DNA of 64,000 bases. Source: Parafrankia discariae (GTDB lineage: Bacteria; Actinomycetota; Actinomycetes; Frankiales; Frankiaceae). The DNA lies in assembly GCF_000373365.1 (NCBI RefSeq), contig NZ_KB891218.1, positions 1-64,000 on the forward strand, read 5' to 3'. The position numbers and the translations under genes were made by a program. The notes below the pieces were generated by a model. That model worked only from the letters and a program-made list of their open reading frames with translations. It had not been told where the DNA came from and ran no database searches. This document shows, piece after piece, positions 51,423 through 61,417 of this stretch; within the stretch, counting starts at the first letter, position 1, and each line of letters begins with the position of its first letter.

Positions 51423-51445
51423 GGGCGGGCTGTGCCAGCCCGCCC
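51423..51445 (+). terminator. Perfect hairpin in the pheS leader
   Basis: GGGCGGGCTG and CAGCCCGCCC form a perfect ten-base-pair stem around TGC, 54 bases after the kinase stop and 22 bases before the pheS GTG. No U-run follows. It may end the upstream transcript or be a leader structure of pheS. Confidence 0.55.
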
Positions 51446-51467
51446 ACCGTCGATGAGGATGATCATC

Positions 51468-52583
51468 GTGCCCGCCCCCAACGAGACCGCTGATCCCGTG
51501 GATCAGCCTGTGGATCTCGGTGCCCTGGATCCCGGACGGCTCGACGGTGCCGCGGCCGCGGCCCTCGCCGCGATCGCCGGGGCCGACGACCTGACCGCGC
51601 TGTCCACCGTGCGTACCGCCCACGTGGACGGACAGCAGGCGCCGCTGATGCTCGCCCGCCGCGAGCTCGGTGCTCTGCCCCGAGAGCACCGGGCGGAGGC
51701 CGGCCGCGCGCACAACGCCGCGACCGCGAAGGTCCGGGCCGCCTACGAGGCCCGGCTGGCCGAGCTCACCGCCCGGCGTGACGCCGAGATCCTGGTCGCC
51801 GAGCGGGTCGACGTGACCCTGCCGGTCGACCGCCGCCGCCGTGGCGCCCGGCACCCGCTGAGTCTGCTCTCCGACCGGCTCACCGACGTCTTCGTGGCCA
51901 TGGGCTACGAGGTCGCCGAGGGCCCCGAGGTGGAGCACGACTGGTTCAACTTCGAGGCGCTCAACATGGCGCCCGACCATCCCGCGCGCAGCGAGCACGA
52001 CACGCTCTACGTCGAGCCGACCGCGTCCGGCCGGCTGCTGCGCACGCACACCTCGCCGGTGCAGATCCGCTCGCTGCTGTCCCGCCCGCTGCCGGTCTAC
52101 GTGGTCTGCCCCGGGCGCACCTACCGCAACGACACGATCGACGCGACGCATTCGCCGGTGTTCGGCCAGCTCGAGTGCCTCGCCGTCGACGAGGGCATCA
52201 CCATGGCCGACCTGCGCGGCACCCTGGAGGTGTTCGCCCAGGCGCTGTTCGGCTCCGGGCTGTCCACCCGGCTGCGGCCGTCGTTCTTCCCGTTCACCGA
52301 GCCGTCCGCCGAGCTGGACGTCCAGTGCTTCGCCTGCCGCGGCGACGCCGCCCGCCAGCCGTGCCGGGTCTGCTCCGACGAGGGCTGGATCGAGGCCGGT
52401 GGCTGCGGGATGGTCGACCCGAACGTGCTGCGGGCCTGCGGGGTCGACCCCGCGCGATACAGCGGCTTCGCCTTCGGGATGGGCCTGGAACGGGCCGCGA
52501 TGACCCGGCACGACGTCCGCGAGATCCGCGACTTCGTCGACGGGGACGTCCGTTTCGGCCTGCCGTTCGGAAGCGAGGGCTGA
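51468..52583 (+). CDS. pheS: Phenylalanyl-tRNA synthetase alpha subunit
   Basis: The catalytic subunit charging tRNA-Phe. The GTG at 51468 follows GAGGA by eight bases and gives 371 residues; ATGs at 51453 and 51459 are in frame, so the start is uncertain by five residues. An N-terminal coiled coil (EHRAEAGRAHNAATAKVRAA) is followed by the class II core: HPLSLLSDRLTDVFVAMGYE, LLRTHTSPVQIRSL (motif 2 region), PGRTYRNDTIDATHSPVFGQ and GFAFGMGLERAAM (motif 3). Four bases separate it from pheT. Confidence 0.95.
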   Translation: MPAPNETADPVDQPVDLGALDPGRLDGAAAAALAAIAGADDLTALSTVRTAHVDGQQAPLMLARRELGALPREHRAEAGRAHNAATAKVRAAYEARLAELTARRDAEILVAERVDVTLPVDRRRRGARHPLSLLSDRLTDVFVAMGYEVAEGPEVEHDWFNFEALNMAPDHPARSEHDTLYVEPTASGRLLRTHTSPVQIRSLLSRPLPVYVVCPGRTYRNDTIDATHSPVFGQLECLAVDEGITMADLRGTLEVFAQALFGSGLSTRLRPSFFPFTEPSAELDVQCFACRGDAARQPCRVCSDEGWIEAGGCGMVDPNVLRACGVDPARYSGFAFGMGLERAAMTRHDVREIRDFVDGDVRFGLPFGSEG

Positions 52584-52587
52584 CCCG

Positions 52588-55170
52588 GTGAGAATCGTCA
52601 TGTCGTGGCTGCGTGAGCTCGTCGGCGGCCTGCCGCCGGCGAAGGCCGTGGCCGACGCGCTGATCCGCGCCGGTTTCGAGGTCGAGGGCCTGGAGACCGT
52701 CGGCGGCGACCTGGCCGGCGTGGTCGTCGGCGAGGTGCTCTCGATCGAGGTCGTCGCGGCGAAGAAGAAGGACGTCCGTTTCTGTCGGGTGCGGGTCGCC
52801 GACCTCGGGGCGCCGGGTGAGCCCGCCGCGTCCGGGCCGGGGGAGTCCGGGCCGGGGGAGACCGAGCCCGGTGTGCGCGGGATCGTCTGCGGCGCGTTCA
52901 ACTTCGAGGTCGGCGACCGGGTGCCGGTCGCGCTGCCCGGCGCGGTGCTGCCCGGAGGGTTCGAGATCAGCTCCCGTAAGACGTACGGGCGTGTCAGCGA
53001 CGGGATGATCTGCTCGGCCCGGGAGCTGGGTCTCGGGGAGGACCACAGCGGGATCCTCGTCCTGCCCGCGGACTCCCGGATCGGGATGGACGTCGCCGAG
53101 CTGCTCGGCCTCGGCGACGAGGTACTCGACATCGCCGTCACCCCGGACCGGGGCTACGGCCTGTCGGTGCGCGGCATCGCCCGCGAGGCGGCGACGGCCT
53201 TCGGCCTGCCGTTCGACGATCCCGGTGTGTGGGGCGCCTCCGGTGCCGGCGGCGGGGACGCGGCCGGGTACCCGGTGCGGGTCGAGGACCCGGTCGCCTG
53301 CGACCGCTACGTCGCCCGGACGGTCAGCGGTGTCGACTCCGCCGCGCGCACCCCGCTGGGTTGGTCGCGGCGGCTGTCGCTGGCCGGCATGCGGCCGATC
53401 TCCGCGCCGGTCGACGTCACCAACATCATCATGCTTGGCCTCGGGCAGCCGCTGCACGCGTTCGACCGGGCGAAGCTGACCGGCCCGATCGTCGTCCGCC
53501 GGGCCCGGGCGGGGGAGCGGCTGCTGACACTGGACGGCGTCGACCGCGCGCTCGACCCGGAGGACCTCGTCATCGCCGACGACTCCGGGCCGGTCGCGCT
53601 CGCCGGGGTGATGGGCGGCGCCGCGACGGAGATCTCCGCGGCGACCACCGACATCGTCCTGGAGTCCGCGCACTTCGACGCGGTCACGGTCGCCCGGACC
53701 GCCCGCCGGCACCGCCTCGGCTCCGAAGCGTCGCGCCGGTTCGAGCGCGGGGTCGACCCGGCGCTCGCGCCGGTCGCCGCGCAGCGGGCCGTCGACCTGC
53801 TGCGCGAGCTGGCCGCGGCCACCGCCGAGCCCGGCGTCACCGACGTCGACCACCGGATGGCCGCGGAGCCGATCGTGTTCCCGCTCGGCGAGCCCGAGCG
53901 GCTGGCCGGCCGTCACTACCCGGCAGACGCGATCCGCCGCCGTCTCACCGACGTCGGCTGCCTGCCGCGCGACCCGGAGCCCGCCGGGGCACCAGGTGCG
54001 CCGGCCGAGCCCGCCGAGCTGCTGGTGACGCCGCCGTCCTGGCGGCCCGACCTGCTCCGTCCCGCGGACCTGGTCGAGGAGGTCGTCCGGCTCGAGGGGT
54101 ACGACACCATCCCGGTGACGCTGCCGCTGCTGCCCGCCGGGCGTGGTCTCACCGCCGCCCAGCAGCTGCGGCGGGCCGTCGGGCGGGCGCTCGCCGCCGA
54201 CGGACATGTCGAGGTGCTCACCCTCCCGTTCGTCGCCGAGGACGCCGCCGACGCGCTCGGCCTGCCCGCCGGCGACGAGCGTCGGGCGGCGGTGCGGGTG
54301 GCGAACCCGATCGCCCAGGACGCCTCCTACCTGCGCACCACGCTGCTGTCCGGGCTGATCGCCGCGGCCGTGCGCAACATCGGCCGCGGCCAGACCGATC
54401 TCGCGCTGTTCGAGATCGGCCTGGTCTTCCGGGAGCCGGACGACGCGCCGGCCGTGCCGGTCGCGGTGGTCACGCCGCCGGTCGACCGCCGTCCCGGCGA
54501 GGACGAGATCAACGCGCTGAACGCGGCCCTGCCCCGCCAGCCGCGCCACGTCGCGGTGGTGCTCACCGGCCTGCGTGAACCCGCCGGCTGGTGGGGTCCG
54601 GGGCGGGCGGCCGACTGGGGCGACGCCCTGGCCGCCGCGCAGGCCACCGCCGCCGCGGTCGGCGTCGAGCTGACCGTCGCCGCCGGGGAGGTCATGCCCT
54701 GGCACCCCGGCCGCTGCGCCGAACTGTCCGTCGACGGCCGGGTCGTCGGGTACGCCGGCGAGCTGCACCCGCGGGTCCTCGGGTCCGTCGGGCTGCCGGC
54801 CCGTACCTGCGCGATGGAGCTGGACCTGGACGCGCTGATCGGCGCCGCGCTCGAGCGGCCGCCGGTCGTGGCTCCCGCGATCTCCACCTTCCCGCCGGCC
54901 GACCGCGACGTCGCGCTGGTCACCGCGGTGGACGTCCCCGTCGCCACGGTGACCGAGGCGTTGCGGGCGGGGGCCGGGGACCTGCTGGAGGCGCTGTCGC
55001 TGTTCGACGTCTACGAGGGGGACCAGGTCGGTCCCGAACGCCGCTCGCTGGCGTTCGGCCTGCGGCTGCGGGCCCCGGACCGGACGCTGACCGCCGCCGA
55101 GGCGAACGACGCCCGCGACGCCGCGGTGGCCGAGGCCACCAGCCGGACGGGCGCCGTCCTGCGCGGCTGA
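52588..55170 (+). CDS. pheT: Phenylalanyl-tRNA synthetase beta subunit
   Basis: The 860-residue subunit carries tRNA binding and editing. In order: SWLRELVGG start, EMAP/OB-fold tRNA-binding domain (VVVGEVLSIEVV, CGAFNFEVGDRVPVALPGAV), B1 (DIAVTPDRGYGLSVRGIAREA), B3/B4 editing core (RRLSLAGMRPISAPVDVTN, HAFDRAKL), B5 (DVGCLPRDP), catalytic-like core, and the C-terminal anticodon-binding fold (PPADRDVALV). GTG 52588 is chosen over ATG 52600 because RIVMSWLRE matches the family. Its 3' end is duplicated in tandem. Confidence 0.96.
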   Translation: MRIVMSWLRELVGGLPPAKAVADALIRAGFEVEGLETVGGDLAGVVVGEVLSIEVVAAKKKDVRFCRVRVADLGAPGEPAASGPGESGPGETEPGVRGIVCGAFNFEVGDRVPVALPGAVLPGGFEISSRKTYGRVSDGMICSARELGLGEDHSGILVLPADSRIGMDVAELLGLGDEVLDIAVTPDRGYGLSVRGIAREAATAFGLPFDDPGVWGASGAGGGDAAGYPVRVEDPVACDRYVARTVSGVDSAARTPLGWSRRLSLAGMRPISAPVDVTNIIMLGLGQPLHAFDRAKLTGPIVVRRARAGERLLTLDGVDRALDPEDLVIADDSGPVALAGVMGGAATEISAATTDIVLESAHFDAVTVARTARRHRLGSEASRRFERGVDPALAPVAAQRAVDLLRELAAATAEPGVTDVDHRMAAEPIVFPLGEPERLAGRHYPADAIRRRLTDVGCLPRDPEPAGAPGAPAEPAELLVTPPSWRPDLLRPADLVEEVVRLEGYDTIPVTLPLLPAGRGLTAAQQLRRAVGRALAADGHVEVLTLPFVAEDAADALGLPAGDERRAAVRVANPIAQDASYLRTTLLSGLIAAAVRNIGRGQTDLALFEIGLVFREPDDAPAVPVAVVTPPVDRRPGEDEINALNAALPRQPRHVAVVLTGLREPAGWWGPGRAADWGDALAAAQATAAAVGVELTVAAGEVMPWHPGRCAELSVDGRVVGYAGELHPRVLGSVGLPARTCAMELDLDALIGAALERPPVVAPAISTFPPADRDVALVTAVDVPVATVTEALRAGAGDLLEALSLFDVYEGDQVGPERRSLAFGLRLRAPDRTLTAAEANDARDAAVAEATSRTGAVLRG

Positions 55171-55193
55171 ACGGGCGCCGTCCGCGCGGCTGA
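55147..55193. repeat. Tandem duplication of the pheT 3' end
   Basis: The 24 bases ending at the pheT stop (55147-55170) are repeated immediately as 23 bases (55171-55193), with one T missing and a second TGA. Confidence 0.85.
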
Positions 55194-55218: not shown

Positions 55219-56595
55219 TCAGGCGTCCACCGCCGCCGACCCGGGCGAGCGGACCAGCGGGGCGAGCAGAGGGAGCCGCAGGCCGATCATGGTCGGCCCG
55301 CCGGGGACCCGGTCGACGATCACGGCGAGCCGCCGTGGCGCCAGCCGGGCGGTGAGCACCTCCCGGCGGGCCGGCGGCGCGAGCTGGTCGTGGACGGCGG
55401 CGGCGAAACCCAGCGCGTCCGCCCGGGTGCCGGCCGATGGACGGCTCCGGGCGAACCGGGCGAACCGGTCCGGGAAGCCGCTCGTGGCAGCGAGACCGGG
55501 CCAGGCCCGGGCGACCGCCGCGCGCCGCTTGTCGATCAGCGTCATCCGGACCGCCTCGAACCGTTCCGGGTCGAAGCCGTCGGCCGGTCCGGCCCCGCTC
55601 ACCAGGTCGGCCACCATCGCCGCCTGCCGTCCCGCGAGCGCCGCGGTGCCCGCGGTGTCCACCGCGTCGTCGGCCGCGTCGGCGCCGGCGTCGTCGGCGT
55701 CGGCGGTTTCCGCCGTCCGCCGGCGCGGGGCGGCTGGACGTCGGTGGGGCCCGGGCCGTCCCGGGCCGGGCCCCAGAGCGGCGGCGTGGATCGCGTCGAG
55801 CTCCGCGTGGAGCTCGGCCGCCCGGGGGTAGTTCCCGTCCCGCTCGAGCAGGACGGCGGGCGTCCCCGACCAGCGTGCCGCCGCCTCGGCCACCAGGCCC
55901 AGGACCTCGGGTGACACCGGGTGCAGGTGGGTGTCGAAGTAGATCCCGTCCGCCACCCGGCCACCGGCGACATGGGCGTACGCCACCTGCTCCCAGGGCA
56001 GCGCGTCGAGGAACCGCAGCGGGTCGACGCCGTGGTTGACGGCGTCCCCGTGCAGGTTGGCGACGTCCACGAGCAGCAGCGCGCCGGTGCGCTCGGCGAG
56101 CTCGGTCAGGAAGGCGGCCGGGTCCAGCTCGTCGTCCGGCCAGGCGAGCACGCTCGCCGCGTTCTCCAGCGCGAGCGGGACGGGCAGCTCGGCCCGCAGG
56201 TCGGCGATGTTGCGGGCCAGCACGCGCAGTGCCGCCCGGGTGCGCGGGACGCCGAGCAGGTGCCCGGCCTCCACCCCGCCCGCCCGGACGAAGGCGACAT
56301 GCTCGCTGACCAGCGGCGAGCCGAGCCGTTCGGCGAGCGCGGCCAGCCGCGCCACCCGGGACGGGTCGAGCGGCTCGGCACCGCCGAGGGAGAGCCTCGT
56401 GCCGTGCGGGACGACCGGTACACCGAGCCCGGTGAGGGCGGGTGGCAGCGGTGCCTCCGGGTGCACGAGCTCCGCGATCACCTCGACGAAGCCCAGATCG
56501 GACCGTTCGGCGAGCACGGCGCCGAGCTCGGGCCGCCACCCGGCACCGAGCCCCGCCAGCGCCCCGGCGGCCGCGACCCGGTCAGCCTCCGCCAC
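55219..56595 (-). CDS. DUF692 multinuclear iron enzyme (MNIO) fused to a C-terminal helical domain
   Basis: DUF692 proteins are TIM-barrel enzymes with two or three iron ions; characterised members (MbnB, TglH) modify Cys in peptides. GTG 56595 follows GGAGG and overlaps the upstream gene's stop by 14 bases; the frame upstream is a repeat-driven shadow. Of 458 residues, 10-285 form the barrel with expected metal-ligand regions: LGFVEVIAE, VPHGTRLSLGG, PLVSEHVAFVR, LALENAAS, VDVANLHGDAVNHG, AHVAGGRVADGIYFDTHLHP and LLERDGNYP. After a 50-residue Arg/Asp/Ala linker, residues 345-450 form a second domain (MVADLVSGAGPADGFDPERF, RAAVARAWPGLAATSG, AARREVL-type helices). This resembles the helical partner proteins encoded next to other MNIO enzymes. 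The substrate is probably the tail of the protein encoded at 56582-57625. Confidence 0.85.
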   Translation of the reverse strand: MAEADRVAAAGALAGLGAGWRPELGAVLAERSDLGFVEVIAELVHPEAPLPPALTGLGVPVVPHGTRLSLGGAEPLDPSRVARLAALAERLGSPLVSEHVAFVRAGGVEAGHLLGVPRTRAALRVLARNIADLRAELPVPLALENAASVLAWPDDELDPAAFLTELAERTGALLLVDVANLHGDAVNHGVDPLRFLDALPWEQVAYAHVAGGRVADGIYFDTHLHPVSPEVLGLVAEAAARWSGTPAVLLERDGNYPRAAELHAELDAIHAAALGPGPGRPGPHRRPAAPRRRTAETADADDAGADAADDAVDTAGTAALAGRQAAMVADLVSGAGPADGFDPERFEAVRMTLIDKRRAAVARAWPGLAATSGFPDRFARFARSRPSAGTRADALGFAAAVHDQLAPPARREVLTARLAPRRLAVIVDRVPGGPTMIGLRLPLLAPLVRSPGSAAVDA

Positions 56596-57625
56596 AACCG
56601 CCACCGCCTCCGCCACAACCGCCACCGCCTCCGCCACAACCGCCACCGCCGCCTCCGCACCCGCCGCCGTGCCCGCCGCCGTGCCCGCCTCCGCCGCCTC
56701 CGCCGCCGTGGCCACCGCCCCAACCGCCCCAGCTGTGGCCACCGCCCCAGCCGTCGCTGCCGCCATGGTGCGAGTCGTCCCCGCCGAAGGCCAGCCAGCC
56801 GGCGATTCCACCGAACGCGCTGTCGCCCGCGTCGGTCGAGCGGGTGTACTCGCGGGCCGGGCCGCCGCGGCCGCCGCCGCGGACGTCCTGGGGCCGGGGG
56901 CCGACCCCCAGCCGGTTCGCGACGGTGGCGTCGGCCCGCCACAGGGCCGCCGGCCCGAACAGCGCGACGGCGACCGCGCGCTGGCCGGGGACGCCCCCGT
57001 CCGCGTAGCCGGCCCGGCGGATCCGGGCGGCCTCGACGAGCCGGCGGCCGTCCCGCGTCGCCGGCGCCGGCCCGGCCAGGACGATCACGGCCAGCACGCC
57101 GGCGAGCGCCACCGGCACGACGAGACCCGGCACGCCCGCGCCGTAGCCGAGCAGCGTGAGGGCCGCGACGGCGATCGACACCGGCAGCAGCAGACGCAGT
57201 ACGGACAGCACGCCGACCAGGCCGGCGGGCGGGACGTGGCCGGCGGCGGCCAGCCGTGCCCGCGCGGCCCGCAGCTCGGGACCGTCGGCGAGCCGCTGGA
57301 GGATCACGCGGACGCGCGGCTGGCCGGCGGCCGCGATCAGCCGGTGCGCGCTCGCGGCGAGCGGCGTGCTGCCCGCCGGGAGCGGACCTGACACGCCGAG
57401 CCGCCAGGTCAGCGGGATGTGGATCGCACCGGCCTCGTAGAGGCCCACGAGGGCGGTCAGCGCGGCGCGCTTCGGCCCGGCGCCGATCAGCGCCAGGTCC
57501 TCGGCTGGAACCGACTGCGGATCGGGCTGCCCGGCGCCGTGGCCGCGCACCGCCGCCGCGCGCAGCGCCACCAGGGCGGCGATGGCGGCAAGCACTGTGA
57601 ACAGGTAACCGAGTGAGATCGCCAT
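56582..57625 (-). CDS. TIGR04222-type membrane protein with His/Gly and Cys-Gly6 repeat tail
   Basis: ATG 57625 follows GGGAG by five bases and gives 347 residues; an ATG at 57637 is alternative. An N-terminal membrane helix (SLGYLFTVLAAIAALVAL) precedes a cytoplasmic-looking region (LIGAGPKRAALTALVGLYEAGAI), then two or three hydrophobic segments around 150-200 (LLLPVSIAVAALTLLGYGAG, VVPVALAGVLAVIVLAG). The C-terminal 75 residues are extraordinary: GGDDSHHGGSDGWGGGHSW, more His/Gly, and finally Cys every seven residues separated by six Gly, four Cys in all, ending CGGG. This fits the TIGR04222 family as I recall it. It is encoded just upstream of, and overlapping, a DUF692 enzyme, which suggests the tail is modified post-translationally or binds metal. 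Confidence 0.8.
   Translation of the reverse strand: MAISLGYLFTVLAAIAALVALRAAAVRGHGAGQPDPQSVPAEDLALIGAGPKRAALTALVGLYEAGAIHIPLTWRLGVSGPLPAGSTPLAASAHRLIAAAGQPRVRVILQRLADGPELRAARARLAAAGHVPPAGLVGVLSVLRLLLPVSIAVAALTLLGYGAGVPGLVVPVALAGVLAVIVLAGPAPATRDGRRLVEAARIRRAGYADGGVPGQRAVAVALFGPAALWRADATVANRLGVGPRPQDVRGGGRGGPAREYTRSTDAGDSAFGGIAGWLAFGGDDSHHGGSDGWGGGHSWGGWGGGHGGGGGGGGHGGGHGGGCGGGGGGCGGGGGGCGGGGGGCGGG
56585..56647. repeat. Three perfect 21-base repeats encoding C-G6
   Basis: Units at 56585, 56606 and 56627 are identical (GCCTCCGCCACAACCGCCAC plus C on the plus strand). On the minus strand they encode the Cys-Gly tail, and the last unit contains the GTG start of the DUF692 gene in another frame. 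Confidence 0.95.
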
Positions 57626-58075
57626 CGTCACTCCCATCCTGGGTCGGCTCGACGCCGGGATGGTGGCATCCCGGCCCGGGAGCCGACTGTCAGGTGACTG
57701 ACGGTTTGTTGTCGAAACCTCAACACCGGTGCGCTCGGTGGGGCGCAGGGCCGCCATGGGAGATCCGCCGGTGCCTCATCGTGATCCGGTCGGGCCGTTC
57801 GCCGCCGGGATCAGCCAGGCGATGTGACGATCGGGGTGGACGGCCATGGCCGCCCACCCCGACCCGCCTCCGGAACGCCGTTGTCCGGAATGGCGCTGGG
57901 ACCAGTGTGCCCACAGTGGTCCCCCGGGGCGTCAACCGTCGCTCAACGGGCAGGTAGGCCGCTGTTCCAGGGAGGTTCTCGATGGCGGAGACACGGTGAG
58001 GGCGCTGCGTGCGGATGGCGGCGCGCTCGGTAAACCCTTGTATCTTCATAGGGTCGTGTGTATAAAGTTGCAGTC
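57626..58075. other. Divergent promoter region between the TIGR04222 gene and argC
   Basis: No gene. The argC end is AT-richer and holds the arg promoter and possible ArgR site. The other end has no clear -10 for the minus-strand operon. CTGTCAGGTGACTGACGG near 57687 is a small inverted repeat. Confidence 0.5.
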
Positions 58076-58076
58076 A
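58037..58076 (+). promoter_or_regulatory. argC promoter with possible ArgR boxes
   Basis: TTGTAT (58039-58044) and TATAAA (58061-58066), 16 bases apart, make a plausible promoter placing the start near 58073, almost on the ATG. The same stretch holds two AT-rich imperfect palindromes of the ARG-box type (CTTGTATCTTCATAGGG and GTGTATAAAGTTGCAG). Repression by the ArgR encoded at the end of the operon is expected from other actinobacteria. Confidence 0.4.
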
Positions 58077-59140
58077 TGGGAGTGACTGCGGCGGTGGCGG
58101 GCGCGAGCGGGTACGGCGGCGGCGAGCTGCTGAGGCTGCTGCTCGGCCATCCCGGCATCGAGATCGGTGACCTGGCGGCGAACACCTCCGCCGGGGCGGA
58201 CGTGACCGACATCCACCCGCACCTGCCCGACCTGGCCGGCCGGGTCTTCGTCGACGCCGCCGCGCTGGCGGAGACCAGCGCCGACATCGTGTTCCTGGCG
58301 CTTCCGCACGGGCAGTCGGCCGCGGTCGCCGCCACCCTCCCGGCCGGCGTCCGCGTCGTCGACCTCGGCGCGGACCACCGCCTCCTCGACCCGCGGGCCT
58401 GGCGCCGGGCGTACGGCGGCGAGCACGCCGGCACCTGGACGTACGGCATGCCCGAGCTGCCCGGGGCGCGGGACGAGATCCGGGTCAGCAACCGGGTCGC
58501 CGCGCCCGGGTGCTACCCGACCGCGGTGAGCCTCGCGCTGGTCCCGCTGGTCGCGGCGGGTGCCGTCGACCCGTCCGACCTCGTCGTGGTCGCGGCGAGC
58601 GGGACCAGCGGCGCCGGCCGGGCGGCGAAGGTCAACCTCATCGGCAGCGAGGTCATGGGCGACCTGACCGCCTACAAGGTCGGCACCCACCAGCACCGTC
58701 CCGAGATCGTCCAGACGCTCACCCGGTACGCCCGCTCGCCGGTGTCGCTGTCGTTCACCCCCGTGCTCGCGCCGATGCCCCGCGGCATCCTGGCGACCTG
58801 CACCGCCCGGCCCGCCGCCGACCTCGTCGCCGGTGACGACCTGGGCACGGGCCTTGGCGCCGACGCCGACACGATCACCGGCATCCTGCGCGCCTTCTAC
58901 GACGACGAGCCGTTCGTGCGCGTGCTGCCGCCCGGGCGGTGGCCGCGCACGTCGTCGACGCTCGGCAGCAACTGCGTCCACCTGCAGGCGACGGTGGACG
59001 ACGAGGCGGGCCGGGTGGTCGTCGTCGCCGCGATCGACAACCTCACCAAGGGAGCCGCCGGGCAGGCGGTCCAGTGCGCCAACCTCATGCTCGGCCAGCC
59101 GGAGACCACCGGCCTGAGCGTTCAGGGCCTCGCGCCGTGA
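58076..59140 (+). CDS. argC: N-acetyl-gamma-glutamyl-phosphate reductase
   Basis: ArgC reduces N-acetylglutamyl phosphate to the semialdehyde. ATG 58076 gives the family start (MGVTAAVAGASGYGGGELLR, NADP loop GASGYGG) and 354 residues; a GTG at 58058 adds six residues and is less likely given the promoter position. The catalytic Cys is in APGCYPTAVSL near 146, and GTSGAGRAAKVN and HQHRPEI with LAPMPRGILAT follow. First gene of argCJBDFR. Confidence 0.95.
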   Translation: MGVTAAVAGASGYGGGELLRLLLGHPGIEIGDLAANTSAGADVTDIHPHLPDLAGRVFVDAAALAETSADIVFLALPHGQSAAVAATLPAGVRVVDLGADHRLLDPRAWRRAYGGEHAGTWTYGMPELPGARDEIRVSNRVAAPGCYPTAVSLALVPLVAAGAVDPSDLVVVAASGTSGAGRAAKVNLIGSEVMGDLTAYKVGTHQHRPEIVQTLTRYARSPVSLSFTPVLAPMPRGILATCTARPAADLVAGDDLGTGLGADADTITGILRAFYDDEPFVRVLPPGRWPRTSSTLGSNCVHLQATVDDEAGRVVVVAAIDNLTKGAAGQAVQCANLMLGQPETTGLSVQGLAP

Positions 59141-59189
59141 CCGCCCCCGTGGCAGTGAGTGAAATGGCCGCGAGGGAAGGGGAGCAACA

Positions 59190-60362
59190 GTGAGCGTCAC
59201 CGCCGCCCGGGGGTTCCGGGCCGCCGGGGCCGCCGCCGGGCTGAAACCGTCCGGGCGTCCGGATGTCGCGCTCGTCGTGAACGACGGTCCCGCCGACGCC
59301 GCCGCGGGTGTGTTCACCCGCAACCGCGTGCAGGCCGCGCCCGTGCTGTGGACCCGTCAGGTGCTGACCACCGGCCGGCTGCGCGCGGTCGTGCTCAACT
59401 CCGGTGGGGCCAACGCCTGCACCGGCCCGGCGGGGTTCGCCGACACCCACGCGACCGCCGAGCACGTCGGCGCGGCGCTCGGTATCGGCGCCGGTGAGGT
59501 CGCGGTCTGCTCCACCGGGCTGATCGGCGTGCGGCTCCCGATGGATCTGCTGCTCCCCGGCGTCACCCAGGCGGTCGGGGCACTCTCGCCGGCCGGCGGC
59601 GACGCCGCGGCCGAGGCGATCCGCACCACGGACACCGTCGCCAAGCAGGCGGTGCGCACCAGCACCCCCGACGCTGCCGGCGGCGGTGTCGTCACGGTCG
59701 GCGGGATGGGCAAGGGCGCGGCGATGCTCGCGCCGTCGCTGGCGACGATGCTCGTCGTCGTCACCACCGACGCCGTCGCCGACAGCGCCACGCTGGACCG
59801 GGTCGTCCGGGAGGCGTGCCGGACGACGTTCGAGCGCGTCGACTCCGACGGCTGCCTGTCGACGAACGACACAGTGCTGCTGCTCGCCTCGGGCGCGTCC
59901 GGGCGGTCCCTGCCCGAGGCGGAGTTGACCGGGCTGGTCACCGCCGTCTGTGACGACCTGGCCGGCCAGATGCTCGGCGACGCAGAGGGATCCACCAAGA
60001 CGATCTCCATCACGGTCACCGGCGCGGCCTCCGAGGCGGACGCCCTCGAGGTCGGCCGCTCGGTGGCCCGCAACAACCTGCTCAAGTGCGCGCTCTACGG
60101 CAAGGACCCGAACTGGGGCCGGGTGCTCGCCGCGATCGGCACGACCGCCGCGGCCTTCGAGCCCGACCGCCTCGATGTGACCATGAACGGCGTCCAGGTG
60201 TGCCGCGGTGGCGCGCCCGGTGAGCCCCGGGAGCTCGTCGACCTCGGCGGGCGGGAGATCAGCATCATCGCCGACCTGCACGCCGGAGACGTCGAGCTGA
60301 CGGTGCGCACGAACGACCTCACCGAAGGCTACGTCTACGAGAACTCGGCGTACTCGACATGA
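59190..60362 (+). CDS. argJ: Bifunctional glutamate N-acetyltransferase / amino-acid acetyltransferase
   Basis: ArgJ recycles the acetyl group from N-acetylornithine to glutamate. The 390-residue precursor self-cleaves before the Thr in LAPSLATML near 187 to give two chains; GGMGKGAAM precedes it. Other motifs are [24 protein letters not shown] and [16 protein letters not shown] start with GGGGAG upstream. The stop overlaps argB (ATGA). Confidence 0.95.
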
Positions 60363-61417
60363 GCGCGGAGCCGAATCCGGCCAAGCCCGTGGGGTGGGCC
60401 GGGGCGAACATCCCCGCGCCGCCGCGCGGCCCGGCGGCCACCGCCCGCGGGCATTCCGCGCTGGCCAAGACCACCGTGCTCATCGAGGCGCTGCCCTGGC
60501 TGTCCCGGTTCCACGGCGCCACCATGGTGATCAAGTACGGCGGGAACGCGATGACCCGCCCGGAGCTGCGCGAGGCGTTCGCCGCGGACATCGTCTTCCT
60601 GCGCTACGCGGGCATCCGGGTCGTCGTCGTGCACGGCGGAGGCCCGCAGATCACCGCCCACCTGGAGCGGCTCGGGGTGCGCTCGGAGTTCGTCGGCGGC
60701 CTGCGGGTCACCACCCCGGAGACCATGGAGGTCGTCCGGATGGTCCTGGTCGGCCAGGTCAACCGGGATGTCGTCGGCATGGTCAACAACCACGGCCCGT
60801 TCGCCGTCGGCCTGTCGGGGGAGGACGCCAACCTGTTCACCGCCCGGCGCCGCCCGGCGATGGTGGACGGCCGCCCGGTCGACGTCGGTCTGGTCGGCGA
60901 CGTCGTCGACGTCCAGCCGGAGACCGTCAACGCGCTGCTCGACTCGGGCAAGGTGCCGGTGGTGGCCTCGGTGGCCCGCGGCCTCGACGGCGGCGTCTAC
61001 AACGTCAACGCGGACACCGCGGCGGCGGTGCTGGCGCTCTCACTGGGCGCGGCCAAGCTCGTCGTGCTCACCGACGTGGAGGGCCTCTACGCCGACTGGC
61101 CGGCGAGCGACGAGGTGATCAGCGAACTGACCGTCGGCGAGCTCGAGCGGCTGCTGCCCACCCTGTCCTCGGGCATGATCCCGAAGATGGAGGCCTGCCT
61201 GCGCGCCGTCGCCGGCGGCGTCCCCCAGGCCCACGTGCTCGACGGGCGGGTCGCGCACGCGCTGCTGCTCGAGATCTTCACCGACGAGGGCATCGGAACG
61301 CTGATCCGCGCCGACCCGCCCGTCGCCGTCGGCGGCGACGCTCCAGCCATCGCGACAGCTACCAGTGCCGGCGTCGGTGATCCGGCCGCGGCGGACATCA
61401 TCGGGGGAGGATCGTGA
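60359..61417 (+). CDS. argB: Acetylglutamate kinase
   Basis: ArgB phosphorylates N-acetylglutamate and is the usual target of arginine feedback. The 352 residues show [66 protein letters not shown] and [15 protein letters not shown]. An N-terminal extension of about 35 residues with [16 protein letters not shown] resembles the kinked helix of arginine-sensitive hexameric enzymes. About 35 low-complexity residues end the protein. Coupled to argJ and argD. Confidence 0.95.

Follow-up and report, generated by a model that had tools for sequence, protein, structure and literature searches.

What does an iron enzyme do whose gene overlaps that of a membrane protein with a cysteine-rich tail, and on which side of the membrane might it act? 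The question is raised by a pair of genes in the window, a stretch of 64,000 nucleotides of Parafrankia discariae. The open reading frames place both genes on the minus strand, that for a TIGR04222 membrane protein (56582..57625, 347 amino acids from ATG 57625) upstream and that for an MNIO/DUF692 enzyme (55219..56595, 458 amino acids from GTG 56595) downstream, with a 14-base overlap at 56582-56595. The source genome was found to hold one TIGR04222 protein and one MNIO. The ATG at 57625 adjoins the start of the TIGR04222 domain; an upstream alternative start, ATG 57757, would add 44 amino acids. On the opposite strand the pair is flanked by genes which, named from reading their ORFs, resemble pheST (51432-55170) and an argC-argJ-argB cluster (58058-61417). 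The 24-bp sequence that ends the pheT-like gene, stop codon included, is duplicated once directly downstream (55147-55193).

The sequence-only reading of this locus had described a membrane protein with a His/Gly-rich stretch and four Cys spaced by six Gly, overlapped over 14 bases by a DUF692 gene, and the sequence confirms that description. It missed that the pairing is published, that the membrane protein belongs to the TIGR04222 family and that the enzyme carries a fused partner domain of the MbnC/TglI type. The pairing itself is not new, since Antoine et al. 2025 (PMC12452194) report >3,500 TIGR04222 proteins, mostly actinobacterial and often encoded beside MNIO genes, and propose the Cys-tailed subset as MNIO substrates with the tail placed in the periplasm. 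They also state that one third of the TIGR04222 genomes lack any MNIO, and that PME-type 2 partners occur in at least 10% of TIGR04222-MNIO clusters, many of which appear to be partnerless. The Parafrankia pair is a real and probably functional member of this family pairing; new here are the fused-partner architecture and, probably, a corrected topology.

The membrane protein scores 101 bits against the TIGR04222 model (NCBIfam curated cut-off 43, E 7e-29). Hydropathy and the AlphaFold model (residues 1-255, pLDDT 87) agree on three transmembrane helices, which are followed by a low-complexity C-terminal tail as is typical of the family. Helix 1 comprises residues 2-27 (57545..57622), and helices 2 and 3 comprise about residues 134-160 and 164-183 (57077..57226; residues 134-160 and 169-183 in the model). 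The protein ends in a His/Gly-rich stretch (residues 286-322; 56660..56770) and then CGGGGGGCGGGGGGCGGGGGGCGGG, that is, a C(G6C)x3-GGG tail of four Cys with six Gly between each (residues 323-347; 56585..56659). The underlying DNA (56585-56669) is a 21-bp tandem repeat of four copies with 92% matches. Cys-Gly tails are present across many genera among the TIGR04222 relatives. The relatives commonly space their Cys by 3-7 residues, and a strict Cys-Gly6 spacing rule was rejected.

PF05114 is the MNIO family, formerly called DUF692. Residues 16-272 of the enzyme (55780..56550) match it with 240 bits against a gathering score of 25 (E 3e-71), and its PDB matches include 3bww (5e-23) and TglH (8hci, 2e-14). 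His64, His99, Glu144, Asp177, Asn180, His208, Asp221 and His223, as aligned with 3bww, are invariant in all 78 MNIOs compared, and Glu251 is kept in 76 of them, with gaps in the other two. We take these positions to be the iron ligands from knowledge of the fold, and the alignment supports the view that they are intact in the window's enzyme. Its top NCBIfam model is BufB (E 5e-49), under the cut-off of that model; it is under the HvfB cut-off as well. Other MNIOs were also encountered, namely a different MNIO (about 1e-110 to PF05114) away from TIGR04222 genes in three genomes (L074, L075 and L076 in G266, G232 and G217), and, in each of two genomes that share the window's genus (L039 and L040 in G002 and G003), a second and more distant MNIO.

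The enzyme has about 185 extra residues at its C-terminus, 142 of which form a conserved core (about residues 317-458; 55222..55647). Neither Pfam nor NCBIfam gave a match for this core, and its profile found chance matches only among PDB sequences; fold comparison was therefore needed for identifying it. The AlphaFold model of the domain has a pLDDT of 92.4. In VIA-align comparison with the PDB its top five entries are all TglI or MbnC (TglI 8hi7_A, Z 6.3 with 139 aligned residues, and 8hci_A, 6.2; then MbnC 7dz9_C, 5.3, 7fc0_C, 4.5, and 7tcr_C, 4.2), values that are middling in absolute terms, and the next row, which is unrelated, has a Z of 3.0. The identity of the TglI chain rests on its length, 269 amino acids versus 304 for TglH. 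Foldseek alone also placed MbnC first, with E 0.048. The DUF2063 (PME-type 1) signature gave no match in the window's domain and matched weakly in 3 of 57 homologues (best E 0.04), which is consistent with a PME-type 2 partner. Altogether, predicted fold and homology support the assignment of the C-terminal ~140 residues as a fused MNIO partner of the TglI/MbnC type.

The domain is homologous to stand-alone ORFs that lie downstream of other MNIO genes. Of 79 MNIO loci, 78 have a match to its core profile, either within the MNIO chain itself or in an ORF of its own downstream. A second scan took in named genomes, some of which may belong to this first set as well; there 28 loci have a fused and 51 a separate partner, 79 of 80 in all, and the 80th runs off its contig. 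At least six switches between the fused and separate states are seen on the MNIO tree. The partner is thus nearly universal at these loci, contrary to the published impression of many partnerless clusters. The Parafrankia pair shares with the published Actinomycetota clusters the family pairing and the Cys in a Gly/Ser-rich C-terminal tail; those clusters are described as having a periplasmic tail and a PME-type 2 partner in at least 10% of cases (PMC12452194), whereas the Parafrankia MNIO carries its partner within its own chain.

We then asked whether the Cys tail and the MNIO go together. Tail Cys were counted and gene neighbourhoods compared for 152 TIGR04222 proteins in 119 genomes, from a survey of 395 genomes of the class and its relatives. 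In the initial table 65 genomes had both tail and MNIO, 2 the tail without MNIO, 22 an MNIO without the tail and 30 neither (Fisher p 6e-12, uncorrected for ancestry). Both exceptions disappeared on inspection: one genome (G041) had initially been outside the MNIO search and has an MNIO adjoining the tail gene, and in the other (G092) the start of an MNIO is present, cut by the contig end. All 67 genomes with a Cys-Gly tail therefore have an MNIO, one of them truncated. Within a single family (f17), both are present in 15 genomes from 8 genera, and 19 further genomes lack the two. Tails in MNIO genomes contain 302 Cys in 2625 residues, as against none in the nine true Gly tails of MNIO-free genomes, which are Gly-rich and mostly end in GGGGGGD or E; a tenth protein that passed the filter (from G171) does not have a Gly tail.

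These counts bear on the idea that the tail is a low-complexity slippage product, its Cys having drifted from Gly or Ser codons and the pairing reflecting shared ancestry. The 21-bp repeat fits such an origin, as does the single base that separates Gly, Ser and Cys codons. The pattern also rests on few independent evolutionary events: on the TIGR04222 tree an independent-pairs test found about six independent tail changes and lacked power, and its informative pairings, nearly all in the expected direction, were not significant. The difference in Cys content between tails with and without an MNIO nevertheless disfavours chance drift, and tails occur repeatedly in many genera; we consider this origin very improbable. 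The Cys-Gly tail of the Parafrankia protein exceeds chance, since such tails are found in many genera and the Gly-rich tails of MNIO-free relatives have no Cys. The earlier proposal that the tail is the substrate of the MNIO is likewise supported as likely by the occurrence of the two genes, within the limits set by so few independent events.

The co-occurrence expected by the sequence-only reading holds from tail to MNIO; the reverse implication fails. Twenty Streptomyces have an MNIO and only Cys-poor TIGR04222 paralogues, and in one member of the Frankia family (G022) the MNIO adjoins a Cys-free TIGR04222 tail, so that the enzyme may have another substrate. At 19 Streptomyces MNIO loci, a search for a remnant of a Cys-tailed gene or another Cys-Gly ORF showed no second TIGR04222 copy nearby, and a few ORFs there carry four or more [GSA]C[GSA] motifs. 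These genomes would suit an alternative in which the tail binds metal unmodified through its Cys, together with the His that are also present, and the MNIO acts on another peptide or protein. Under that alternative, the confinement of Cys-bearing tails to genomes with an MNIO would be hard to understand, and the Cys-free Gly tails of MNIO-free relatives would be odd if a metal-binding tail were self-sufficient. We regard the alternative as improbable, and the Cys-Gly tail as the likely MNIO substrate. In five tailed genomes of the Frankia family the MNIO lies elsewhere in the genome.

Several variants of the gene order were seen. Streptomyces loci such as L159, L162 and L223 have the order MNIO, Cys-tailed TIGR04222, second and Cys-free TIGR04222 ending in ELRAAL, and many Streptomyces retain just the MNIO and the second TIGR04222, which ends in GEPDLRAAFAHRE. 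At three Frankia/Pseudofrankia loci (L298, L299 and L300) an MNIO with a separate partner has no TIGR04222 detected within 4.5 kb; at least one such genome (G023) has a Cys tail elsewhere.

The tail had earlier been placed either at the surface or at the cytoplasmic face. Of these, the cytoplasmic position is the better supported, by three lines of sequence and model comparison. First, Lys and Arg are more numerous on the side that holds the ends of loop 1 and the segment after helix 3 in 78 of 79 three-helix proteins (mean 8.4 versus 2.2), an excess that comes partly from the larger number of residues counted on that side and is about twofold per residue. Second, TIGR04222 aligns with DUF2207_C (hhalign 96%, E 4e-9, 178 columns; reversed and unrelated controls at most 0.5%). 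In E. coli YciQ and other DUF2207 proteins an external domain follows an N-terminal segment that resembles a signal sequence, and their Gly/Ser-rich C-terminus is predicted to be intracellular (PMC10457818). TIGR04222 proteins have a similar Gly/Ser-rich tail; they differ in that DUF2207 proteins have the extracytoplasmic N-terminal domain and tails without Cys.

Third, residues 41-133 between helices 1 and 2 (57227..57505) form a predicted soluble domain that resembles GOLPH3/GPP34 proteins. GPP34 is a family of cytosolic domains in eukaryotes. VIA-align gave GOLPH3 9qpq_B at Z 8.5 (147 aligned), 3kn1 at 8.1 and Vps74 2zih at 7.2, values near background for helical models, which makes this the weakest of the three lines. 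The domain aligns with bacterial GPP34 (hhalign 85%, E 6e-6, 76 columns; controls at most 0.3%). The similarity is remote; the window's TIGR04222 protein has no match to Pfam GPP34. Foldseek returned nothing significant for its model.

Taken together, the positive-inside pattern, the DUF2207_C homology and the GPP34-like domain suggest that the N-terminus is likely outside, that the domain between helices 1 and 2 is likely cytosolic and that the tail is probably on the cytoplasmic side instead of the published periplasmic one, which would bring it within reach of a cytosolic MNIO. The published placement, with the tail in the periplasm or at the surface after modification before or during export, was derived by Antoine et al. 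from predicted transmembrane topology in selected models (PMC12452194), and it has the parallel of bufferins, which are exported. Such a placement has to be reconciled with the charge distribution in 78 of 79 proteins, with the relationship to proteins that have a signal sequence followed by an external N-terminal domain and with a loop resembling a cytosolic family, and it seems unlikely to us. If the tail is indeed cytosolic, the published topology would be corrected, and the product and role to be expected would change.

With fair confidence, we propose that the membrane protein is an anchored substrate, and that a self-contained fusion of MNIO and partner oxidises its tail Cys on the cytosolic side of the membrane. 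The two-gene cluster would supply a TIGR04222 protein held in the membrane by its three helices, with the GPP34-like domain and Cys-Gly tail on the cytosolic side, and, from the overlapping gene, an iron enzyme carrying a substrate-recognition partner on its C-terminus, as homology and predicted fold suggest. The flexible tail would be bound by, or threaded into, the MNIO and its Cys oxidatively converted, most likely into thiooxazole-type or related copper-binding groups, a suggestion by analogy with the bufferin and captophorin enzymes only. The closest characterised enzymes, BufB, HvfB and FonB, make a thiooxazole-type copper ligand, thiooxazole having a UV signal at about 305 nm (PMC13097082), and this is why such a ligand is our first guess. 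The product would stay anchored in the membrane, and its tail would offer several metal- or redox-binding sites. More tentatively, and with the balance of our judgement somewhat against it, the metal-binding heterocycles so formed could buffer or sense metal inside the cell from a fixed position at the membrane, with no peptide released.

The proposed system differs in several respects from those already characterised. Bufferins and captophorins/oxazolin (BufB/BufC, HvfB/HvfC, FonB/FonC) likewise combine a related MNIO with a required partner and repeated Cys that often precede Gly; their enzymes, however, act on short peptides that carry a Sec signal and are secreted, a PME-type 1 (DUF2063) protein serves as the separate partner, and thiooxazoles have been shown. 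The window's pair, with a three-helix putative substrate and a fused non-DUF2063 partner, thus lacks the Sec-signal precursor and PME-type 1 partner gene of a bufferin gene cluster. TglHI and MbnBC have an MNIO and a partner of the same fold (Z 6.3 and 5.3 in VIA-align), but as separate subunits that act on soluble peptides without a membrane anchor. The ChrH subfamily of MNIOs modifies the C-termini of proteins >30 kDa (PMC12636315), and so resembles the proposed system in acting on a C-terminal motif of a large protein; it is another MNIO subfamily with another motif, and its carriers are lipoproteins or soluble proteins.

If our proposal is correct, MNIO chemistry would not be limited to released peptides and would also build permanent parts of membrane proteins in many actinobacteria. 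For specialists this would be useful more than startling, and the question is now directly testable. Most MNIOs require partner proteins, and HvfB and HvfC joined artificially in one chain are active (PMC13419390); the natural fusion described here would similarly provide a single-chain enzyme for testing.

A different kind of fusion was seen in one further genome (G009), where an ORF (L110, 1775-2792) continues in frame from a TIGR04222 Cys-Gly tail into part of a partner domain, ELIDKRRSAVAEHWPALAAT. It looks as if the intervening MNIO had been deleted; the other MNIO match of that genome is partial.
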